Assembly (NCBI RefSeq): GCF_000336935.1
Contig: NZ_AOME01000070.1
Coordinates: forward strand, 102,065-137,537
Length of the DNA stretch: 35,473 bases
Origin: Halococcus salifodinae DSM 8989
GTDB taxonomy: Archaea; Halobacteriota; Halobacteria; Halobacteriales; Halococcaceae
Direction: 5' to 3'
The position numbers were made by a program, and so were the translations under genes. Shown piece after piece: positions 5,868-7,530 of this stretch (positions are counted from its first letter, which is position 1; each line of letters begins with the position of its first letter). The notes below the pieces were generated by a model. It worked only from the letters and a program-made list of their open reading frames with translations, had not been told where the DNA came from and ran no database searches.

Positions 5868-5915
5868 GTCCCGTGAGGATCGCAAATCCTCCGGATTTGC
5901 TCACCACCACGGGAC
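5868..5915 (-). repeat. Hairpin copying the tRNA-Gln acceptor stem, 16 nt upstream of the tRNA
   Basis: On the plus strand GTCCCGTG (5868-5875) pairs with CACGGGAC (5908-5915), and inside it GCAAATCC (5882-5889) pairs with GGATTTGC (5893-5900) around a TCC triloop. The outer arm on the minus strand, with flanking bases, reads GGTCCCGTGGTGGTG, closely matching the tRNA 5' end AGTCCCGTGGTGTAG. It may be a remnant of a duplicated tRNA end (an integration scar or tRNA fragment) or an element acting on tRNA transcription or processing. The inner stem follows the same triloop-palindrome style as the composite elements elsewhere in the window. Confidence 0.7.
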
Positions 5916-5998
5916 CTCAGCCCGAAGTATCGCCGGATCGCACTTGAACGCTTCGAGACTCGCCCTTATGTGTCTGGGTCACCCGAAGTCGAGCAGAC

Positions 5999-6419: not shown

Positions 6420-6851
6420 CTAGTCCGCCGCGCCGGGCTCGGCGTCGAGCAGCGCACAAACGTCCTCGTCGGGGGCGAAGCAGTCGGGACACTGGGGTTC
6501 GCGGTCGATGATGGTGTCGAGGCGCTCGGCCACCGTTTCGTCGATCACGCTTTCGAGCTGGCTCGCCTCGGCGCGGAACTCCTCGACGTCGAGCACCTCC
6601 ACGAGGAACCGCTCGATGATGCAGTACGTCTGGAGGGAATCACGCGCGCGCTCGATCCCTTCGTCGGTCAGCGTGACGCCCTTGTACTTCTCGTGGTCGG
6701 CGAGCCCGCGAGATTCGAGCTTCCCGATCATCTCGTTGGCGCTCGCGGGGCTCACGTCGAGAGTATCGGCGAGCCTCCCGGTCGCTGCCGGGCCGTTCTC
6801 GACCTGCTGGACGAGATAGATCGCTTTCAGGTACTGCTCGGCCGTGTTCAT
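6420..6851 (-). CDS. DtxR-fold transcriptional regulator with altered metal site and Cys cluster
   Basis: 143 aa. An N-terminal winged helix (about 1-70) ends in the KYKGVTLT wing typical of the DtxR/MntR family, followed by the helical dimerisation domain. The residues that normally ligate metal appear changed: the family's paired His near 'VRHHRLLE' reads TYCIIERF, the HEEAxxxEH segment reads RAEASQLESV, and the usual C-terminal PHG motif is replaced by CPDCFAPDEDVC. No SH3-like third domain is present. The ATG at 6851 overlaps the stop of a 20-codon ORF (ATGA). A GTG three codons upstream is possible but lies inside that ORF. The gene is last in a chain with a ferritin-like gene and beside sufCBD, so iron or Fe-S status sensing is inferred. 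Confidence 0.85.
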   Translation of the reverse strand: MNTAEQYLKAIYLVQQVENGPAATGRLADTLDVSPASANEMIGKLESRGLADHEKYKGVTLTDEGIERARDSLQTYCIIERFLVEVLDVEEFRAEASQLESVIDETVAERLDTIIDREPQCPDCFAPDEDVCALLDAEPGAAD

Positions 6852-6910
6852 GGCGACCACCGCCTGTGATCGCCGTGAGCCAGTCGAAGCGGCGCTTCGA
6901 CACTGTTCAC
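6848..6910 (-). CDS. 20-codon ORF (sORF C), coupled to the DtxR-fold regulator
   Basis: The frame is GTG at 6910 to TGA at 6848-6850 and encodes MNSVEAPLRLAHGDHRRWSP. Its start overlaps the stop of sORF B (GTGA) and its stop overlaps the ATG of the regulator (ATGA). It shares 11 of 20 residues with sORF B (by hand alignment), including MN-x-VEA, R-x-AH and RRW. It could be a genuine microprotein, a translational-coupling device or a decayed duplication of the regulator's start region; about 13 of 20 codons end in G or C, lower than in flanking genes, which weakens the protein-coding case. Confidence 0.45.
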   Translation of the reverse strand: MNSVEAPLRLAHGDHRRWSP

Positions 6911-6969
6911 GCGAGCCACCTCCGGCACGGAGCGTGTGCTCGTCGATGCTTCGCTTCGACGGTGTTCAT
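6907..6969 (-). CDS. 20-codon ORF (sORF B), between the ferritin-like gene and sORF C
   Basis: The frame is ATG at 6969 to TGA at 6907-6909 and encodes MNTVEAKHRRAHAPCRRWLA. The ATG overlaps the ferritin-like stop codon (ATGA) and its own stop overlaps the GTG of sORF C (GTGA). The two ORFs are equal in length (63 nt with stop) and about 63% identical without gaps by hand count, so they look like a tandem duplication. The peptide is basic and ends in an aromatic RRW motif, unlike most haloarchaeal proteins, which are acidic. Function unknown. Confidence 0.45.
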   Translation of the reverse strand: MNTVEAKHRRAHAPCRRWLA

Positions 6970-7448
6970 TCGCGTTCCTCCATGAGTTTCGTGACCTCCT
7001 CCGCTCCCTCTGCTTCCTCCTCGCGAATCGCCGACAGCGTCCCGACGAGTCGTTCGCGCTCGATGCCGAACTCCACAGTACTGGACTCGATCGCGGCGAT
7101 GAGATCGTCGTAGAACTTGTAGGCGGTTTCCTCGTTGCAAAGCTGATCGTAGAGCACGCCGTCGGTGTCCCGATCGCGCTCGTAGTGGTCGGCGACGAGT
7201 GGTTCGATCTGCTCGAACGGGATCTGCTCGGCGTCGAGTTCGTCGATCAGCCCCGAGAGACGGTCGCGGTGCTCGGCCGATTCCTCGGCGGCGTGCTCCA
7301 GTAAGTCCTCGATTGCGGGGTCGAGATCCGCCTCGAACGACTGGTAATGCTGGTGGGCGCGCGCTTCGACGACCTCCTCCAACACGACCCCGATCTGGAG
7401 GAGACGGGCGAGCTGGTGGTCCGAGGCCACCGGCTGGCTCACGCTCAC
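6966..7448 (-). CDS. Ferritin-like / rubrerythrin-type diiron protein
   Basis: 160 aa from the GTG at 7448. It is an all-helical, Glu-rich protein with ferritin-like features: a first helix EEVVEARAHQH, an ExxH motif in EESAEHRDRL, a third helix NEETAYKFYDD and a final Glu-rich helix. The last ExxH His is not obvious, so the diiron site may be modified. The GTG was chosen because homology begins at VSQPVASDHQ and because it forms a GTGA overlap with an 18-codon ORF; a second GTG two codons on (7442) is also possible. A longer frame reaching 7565 would run through the promoter and into sufD. Position next to Suf genes and a DtxR-fold regulator suggests iron storage or handling. Confidence 0.7.
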   Translation of the reverse strand: MSVSQPVASDHQLARLLQIGVVLEEVVEARAHQHYQSFEADLDPAIEDLLEHAAEESAEHRDRLSGLIDELDAEQIPFEQIEPLVADHYERDRDTDGVLYDQLCNEETAYKFYDDLIAAIESSTVEFGIERERLVGTLSAIREEEAEGAEEVTKLMEERE

Positions 7449-7501
7449 GGGGACCACCCGGAAAAGATGCGCTCGAAAACCGATGCCTCGTGGACGTCCA
7501 T
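7445..7501 (-). CDS. 18-codon leader ORF (sORF A), coupled to the ferritin-like gene
   Basis: The frame is ATG at 7501 to TGA at 7445-7447 and encodes MDVHEASVFERIFSGWSP. A TATA-like CTTAAG is centred 26-27 nt before the ATG, the spacing at which haloarchaea start leaderless transcripts, so this would be the first codon of the mRNA. Its stop overlaps the ferritin-like GTG start (GTGA). Fifteen of 18 codons end in G or C, similar to neighbouring genes. Like sORF C it ends in W-S-P. It may be a microprotein or a leader ORF that controls translation of the following gene. Confidence 0.5.
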   Translation of the reverse strand: MDVHEASVFERIFSGWSP

Positions 7502-7524
7502 ACCGTTGTTCGTGAACGGAAGAA

Positions 7525-7530
7525 CTTAAG
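7525..7530 (-). promoter_or_regulatory. TATA-like box of the sORF/ferritin-like/DtxR operon
   Basis: CTTAAG on the minus strand, just past the sufD stop codon at 7534, centred 26-27 nt before the ATG at 7501. It would give a leaderless transcript independent of suf, although read-through from sufCBD is also possible because no T-tract terminator is seen between them. Confidence 0.45.

Follow-up and report, generated by a model that had tools for sequence, protein, structure and literature searches.

Micro-ORFs between a ferritin-like gene and a DtxR-family regulator of haloarchaea are probable frame-locked translational relays

In Haloferax volcanii, overlapping genes are coupled by termination-reinitiation, according to a 2023 study (PMC10666635). 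In the first pair tested there, a gap of 13 nt cut reinitiation by 60% and one of 22 nt abolished it; spacings of 13 to 14 nt cost much of the reinitiation and 22 to 23 nt nearly all of it. The same study reports that in Escherichia coli the final 15 nt of the upstream gene are enough for coupling. The terms "short ORF," "small genes," and "unannotated" are absent from the text of the 2023 paper. A transcription start site (TSS) study of H. volcanii sought uORFs in 5′-UTRs of 150 to 250 nt (PMC4983044). The gene pairs of Huber (2019, PMC6728339; 2023, PMC10666635) resemble the locus described here in their ATGA overlaps, in a Shine-Dalgarno (SD) sequence inside the upstream ORF, in their haloarchaeal origin, and in their strong dependence on distance. 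No published relay at the junction of a ferritin-like gene and its regulator, or in haloarchaea, was found in the open-licence literature searched.

The window, that is, the whole stretch of DNA that was analyzed, comprises 35,473 nt of Halococcus salifodinae DSM 8989 (NZ_AOME01000070.1, positions 102,065 to 137,537). Its minus strand carries, in this order, genes resembling sufB and sufD, the ferritin-like gene, and the gene of a DtxR-family regulator (Table 1). The Pfam match of the ferritin-like protein has an E value of 4e-4 and 21.1 bits, slightly below the curated cut-off of 22.8, and one homologue is annotated "ferritin-like domain-containing protein." The H. volcanii counterpart of the regulator is presumably TroR, HVO_0863, judging by gene order. 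The name TroR for HVO_0863 appears in a published study (PMC11349517). The named loci closest to the window's junction were those of Halococcus morrhuae and Halococcus thailandensis, in a comparison from which the window's own record is possibly absent.

The 117 bases between the ferritin-like gene and the regulator are filled by two 20-codon micro-ORFs. The ferritin-like TGA (6968-6966) is overlapped by the ATG of micro-ORF 1, whose own TGA is overlapped by the GTG of micro-ORF 2; the TGA of micro-ORF 2 is supplied by the regulator's start, ATGAAC, and is overlapped by its ATG (6851). The chain thus holds three -4 overlaps, the stop/start overlap (or close spacing) that marks termination-reinitiation. 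A hairpin is possible at the end of micro-ORF 2 (window 6852-6874, minus strand; arms GGCGATCAC and GTGGTCGCC), with the SD in its 3′ arm; among the loci listed for it (L011, L005, and L123, these being our locus labels), L011 changes both arms (CGC/GCG) by eye, and the stem would be kept. An imperfect inverted repeat (GTCCCGTG...CACGGGAC) was also seen by eye 3′ of the regulator, at about 5870-5930.

Table 1. Features of the ferritin-like gene/regulator junction and its surroundings in the Halococcus salifodinae window
Feature	Position in window	Strand	Remark
TATA-like element TTAAGT	7524..7529	-	5′ micro-ORF ATG lies 28 nt behind it
5′ micro-ORF, 18 codons, MDVHEASVFERIFSGWSP, predicted leaderless	7445..7501	-	TGA overlaps the ferritin-like GTG start
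Ferritin-like gene, GTG start	6966..7448	-	Weak Pfam Rubrerythrin PF02915 match
SD-like GGAGGA in the last codons of the ferritin-like gene (LMEERE*)	6976..6981	-	Positioned for the micro-ORF 1 start
Micro-ORF 1, 20 codons, MNTVEAKHRRAHAPCRRWLA, ATG start	6907..6969	-	4-nt overlap with each neighbour
SD GGAGGTGG within micro-ORF 1, read there as R-R-W	6916..6923	-	
Micro-ORF 2, 20 codons, MNSVEAPLRLAHGDHRRWSP, GTG start, tandem duplicate of micro-ORF 1	6848..6910	-	4-nt overlap with each neighbour
SD-like GGCGGTGGTC within micro-ORF 2, part of a possible hairpin (3′ arm)	6855..6864	-	
DtxR-family metal-dependent regulator	6420..6851	-	PF01325 E 5e-18, PF02742 E 1.3e-10

The junction from the ferritin-like gene to the regulator was surveyed at 192 distinct haloarchaeal loci. 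A first set of 183 loci, selected because their proteins resembled those of the window, gave 154 distinct junctions once identical ones were collapsed. Family f7 was nearly missing from this set and was filled by a second batch from an even draw, which supplied 38 usable loci, many from initially missed families, and which was fetched after the rule reported below had been noticed. Loci with the regulator only (L002, L182), with a contig ending before the regulator (L223), or copying another (L217, a copy of L172) were dropped.

Nothing lies between the two genes in 70 of the 192 junctions, which have a direct ATGA overlap. Four more (three Haloferax and one relative) have a 4-nt gap that is also readable as a 3-codon ORF, and seven have a spacing of -1 to 8 nt without a relay; the latter have TAA or TAG or a non-overlapping stop, so the 4-nt overlap is not essential. 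In the other 111 junctions, 13 to 217 nt separate the two genes, and 109 of these gaps are bridged completely by one or two ORFs with stop/start overlap, including that of L133, which closes with a 1-nt TGATG overlap. Both exceptions have micro-ORFs, one ending 2 nt before the regulator (L172) and one starting 1 nt after a TAG (L023). All long gaps of the second batch were bridged (29 of 29), and the space between consecutive ORFs never exceeded 8 nt in any junction. The micro-ORFs range from 6 to 74 codons. The gap length was 1 mod 3 in 106 of the 111 cases (binomial against 1/3, 5e-44, uncorrected for kinship), which is the exact requirement of a single ORF with a 4-nt overlap at both ends, and the five gaps of other lengths are two-ORF chains (the window's own, L011, L019, L198, and L023). 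Some of the longest relays to the regulator, reaching 74 codons, occur at the f7 loci (L189-L207). At L185 22158-23842 (Haladaptatus halobius plasmid NZ_CP085338), a second ferritin-like/regulator pair was seen, with a direct 4-nt overlap and adjoining dpsA.

In 98 of the 111 long-gap junctions, an SD-like 5-mer lies upstream of the regulator (8.8 expected under a composition null), inside the upstream relay ORF and before the downstream start. The SD for the next start sits near the stop of each micro-ORF, and the RRW shared by the two micro-ORFs of the window is the SD CGGAGGTGG read in frame. Their shared M-N is a product of the RTGA stop/start overlap: a start that overlaps a TGA needs A as its next base, and residue 2 of the relay ORF is accordingly restricted to N, S, T, I, R, K, or M (110 of 111); 21 of the 111 relays begin RTGAAC. 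The reading of the SD depends on its frame. For instance, GGAGGTGG gives R-R-W, and GGAGGGATC in another frame gives E-G-S/F, which matches the TEGST and PEGFP ends found in other genera. The RRW and WSP ends, which the sequence-only reading of this DNA had listed as shared peptide features, are therefore in-frame SD sequence rather than peptide homology; the upstream 18-codon ORF does end in WSP, as micro-ORF 2 does. With a forced M-N and an SD-derived RRW, shared ends say little about peptide function.

The two micro-ORFs of the window had been described in that reading as tandem paralogues, and the pair is real, on the minus strand, with overlapping stops and starts. The translations have 11 of 20 residues in common and the ungapped nucleotide identity is 37 of 59 nt (63%), as it had counted by hand. 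In the core, outside the forced start and the block of the SD, 23 of 33 nt were identical, and 20,000 first-order Markov resamples never reached this level. The description of both peptides as basic holds clearly for micro-ORF 1 (about +4) and only slightly for micro-ORF 2 (about +1). It had further been suggested that the two are duplications of the regulator's start region that kept the overlap signals. A duplicated unit and kept overlap signals agree with our results; copying of the regulator start as a general origin was rejected, because micro-ORF starts (nt 5-17) have near-background identity to their own regulator start (mean 4.11 of 13, compared to 3.68 for internal windows), with an identity of at least 9 of 13 in 1 of 100 cases compared to 0.4%. 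A changing number of about 60-nt units across haloarchaea, for which it had proposed a test, was seen in few cases and is not the main pattern: in most relatives the junction sequence is unrelated, which the reading had itself named as refuting a repeat unit. What the unrelated sequences have in common is frame and overlap.

Two-unit similarity was found at L023 (12 of 5000 resamples as good) and, more weakly, at L012 (161 of 5000), and the two ORFs of L011 are dissimilar to each other (4097 of 5000). At L012, the two-unit junction reads through as a single 40-codon fusion ORF that contains GTGAAC in frame; the sufD-like and ferritin-like genes of this locus are more than 1 kb apart, with other sequence between them. 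No resample out of 5000 was as good as the match of micro-ORF 1 to L031 (MNTESAELLRAHAHPEGFP). By these comparisons, the remaining shared residues, VEA and AH, reflect the duplication, and the AH region is also part of an older unit visible in L031. The unit itself was found at one locus only in this genome, the best other match having an E value of 0.07, and a dispersed repeat element, with the many genome copies typical of MIRUs, was rejected on this ground.

The weight of the survey lies in the length of the gaps. Under a Markov null, 24.3 of 82 junctions were expected to be bridged when the junction length was free and 65.7 of 82 when it was fixed; GC-rich resampled gaps of the same length are thus often bridged, openness alone is weak evidence, and the evidence rests on the length frame. 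Were the gap a mere spacer whose SD starts the regulator on its own, with open frames as a by-product of high G+C content, both the SD-like sequence in 98 of 111 junctions and the frequent bridging at fixed length would be accounted for. However, such a spacer leaves the 1 mod 3 length unexplained, and control junctions are unbridged. Among annotated gene pairs on four stretches of haloarchaeal plasmid DNA, those separated by 13 to 184 nt were evenly distributed among the three frames (14, 14, 13), and 2 of 41 were bridged. Of the suf gene junctions just upstream of the ferritin-like gene, sufC-sufB was bridged in 1 of 26 cases and sufB-sufD in 0 of 6 (30 suf loci, one dropped per junction, one of these missing and the other without a start). 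We therefore regard a spacer as very unlikely. Another reading would have the junction conserved as an RNA hairpin or as a binding site for the regulator, the ORFs being incidental. The window's junction folds better than its shuffles (z -2.79), and a stem over the SD is possible in micro-ORF 2, but most genera have unrelated sequence at the junction and 70 of 192 loci have none at all, which makes this highly improbable. A tree of both proteins (FastTree, 192 rows) requires no fewer than 26 switches between relay and direct overlap and no fewer than 65 changes in gap length, so the pattern goes beyond a few inherited events.

The peptides themselves appear to drift. Divergence was measured in 19 disjoint sister pairs selected for equal gap length, a regulator identity of at least 0.85, and a micro-ORF identity of at least 0.55, a choice that favours alignable pairs. 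In these, the pN/pS of the intergenic micro-ORFs, to which these figures apply as distinct from the 5′ ORF, was 0.94 (pS 0.195, pN 0.182), compared to 0.06 for the regulator (pS 0.186, pN 0.011). This means that the non-synonymous sites of the micro-ORFs change at the regulator's synonymous rate. Over all equal-length pairs, with no floor on micro-ORF identity, the value was 1.02. The acidic bias of the regulator is absent as well (D+E about 10% in the micro-ORFs versus 21%). The purifying selection expected of small-protein genes is thus not seen, and on these pN/pS values a functional peptide was rejected. Functional small proteins, duplicated in Halococcus salifodinae, would fit the 19- to 20-codon units that look homologous across families (micro-ORF 1 and L031), but the wide range of lengths and the absence of any micro-ORF from 70 of the 192 junctions also tell against them, and we consider them very unlikely. 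A -1 frameshift where the ferritin-like gene ends, reaching the micro-ORF as a C-terminal tail, would likewise entail selection on frame, since the micro-ORF is in frame -1 relative to the gene before it. However, the tail would be hypervariable and neutral, and a start codon placed exactly at the stop is the documented haloarchaeal signal for reinitiation; a frameshift has very little probability in our judgment. For the intergenic micro-ORFs, it is the coupling that is conserved and not the peptide, the frame being kept in 106 of 111 junctions and the rest being two-ORF chains.

A related arrangement precedes the ferritin-like gene. A TATA-like element with an ATG 20 to 35 nt behind it was found at 141 loci, and at 132 of these the ATG is in the relay frame, opening an ORF that ends on the TGA over the ferritin-like start. 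These ORFs have 8 to 20 codons in 129 of the 132 cases, and the ATG lies 28 to 30 nt from the element in 121. Archaeal TATA boxes lie about 28 to 30 nt from the transcription start, so the 5′ micro-ORFs are predicted to be leaderless. RTGA linkage together with a leaderless small-ORF start, the combination known from mycobacteria, is hence present at 132 of 141 loci, with the TSS taken from the TATA spacing only. The frame rule is broken at 9 of the 141 loci, and the TATA-plus-ATG pair is absent from 12 of the 154 loci of the first set. In the second set, 20 of 21 loci agree with the rule and 17 of 38 are without the pair. At 14 second-set loci that were inspected, mostly ones without the pair, the ferritin-like gene itself is usually at the leaderless position (L201 is an exception), and no 5′ relay is then needed. 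The f7 loci (L189-L207) mostly have a ferritin-like gene that is itself leaderless in appearance, without a 5′ micro-ORF. In most loci, a leaderless micro-ORF is predicted to play the same relay role before the ferritin-like gene.

Architecture, frame conservation, neutral peptide evolution, and SD placement, all read directly from the DNA, make it likely that the micro-ORFs are frame-locked, sequence-free translational relays for termination-reinitiation between the ferritin-like gene and the regulator; we infer that they are translated and that reinitiation sets the level of the regulator. A ribosome finishing the ferritin-like gene would terminate at its TGA and restart at the overlapping ATG, make a short unimportant peptide, and terminate at the TGA overlapping the regulator start, where reinitiation would be aided by the SD within the micro-ORF. 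Inserted DNA would break the coupling unless it contained an open frame of the right length, and only frame-locked ORFs would survive. The two relays in series here would be the result of a unit duplication, and the leaderless 18-codon micro-ORF would pass ribosomes to the ferritin-like gene likewise. Relays may expand and contract by recombination between repeated RTGAAC starts, although most relays begin otherwise, and two relays may lower the regulator's share, each step losing some ribosomes. Alternatively, the strong SD could permit independent initiation at the regulator. Tentatively, we suggest that haloarchaea may keep unannotated genes selected only for being translated, with frame, overlaps, and SD kept across an order and a neutral peptide, and that the ratio between regulator and ferritin-like protein is perhaps determined by the number and length of relays in series, as by a dosage dial.

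If true, the junction is a natural repeated experiment in which coupling itself is under selection, with at least 65 length changes, the frame kept, and a peptide drifting at the synonymous rate. The distance rule for reinitiation would become testable in evolution, and there would be a sequence signature for the genome-wide discovery of relay ORFs. Surveys of small ORFs would include peptides that are functionless as peptides. For this operon, a leaderless micro-ORF followed by SD-assisted reinitiation would answer how genes behind a leader are translated.

Several known systems resemble these relays in part. The pairs of Huber (2019, PMC6728339; 2023, PMC10666635) are overlaps of full genes, whereas here apparently dispensable micro-ORFs would re-establish an overlap where DNA has been inserted. 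The "coupled" small ORFs of mycobacteria (Shell 2015, PMC4633059) are leaderless and RTGA-linked to a downstream gene, and in one example the linkage is conserved and the sequence is not. However, those ORFs are bacterial and, in the examples considered, lie upstream of annotated genes, whereas the relays here are archaeal, occur also between genes and in series, and come with order-wide frame statistics. MIRUs (Supply 1997, via PMC12548453) share a small ORF inserted at a start codon, -4 coupling, and repeated units, but they are dispersed and apparently mobile, whereas the unit here is single-copy and unrelated between most genera. In bicistronic designs with an upstream nonsense ORF (PMC5995908, PMC13255528), a short meaningless ORF also delivers ribosomes onward; these are engineered, whereas the putative relays here are natural and conserved. 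A short ORF that delivers ribosomes is thus already in print for bacteria (PMC12548453, PMC4633059), and the haloarchaeal relay, as read from these junctions, is a new form of it.
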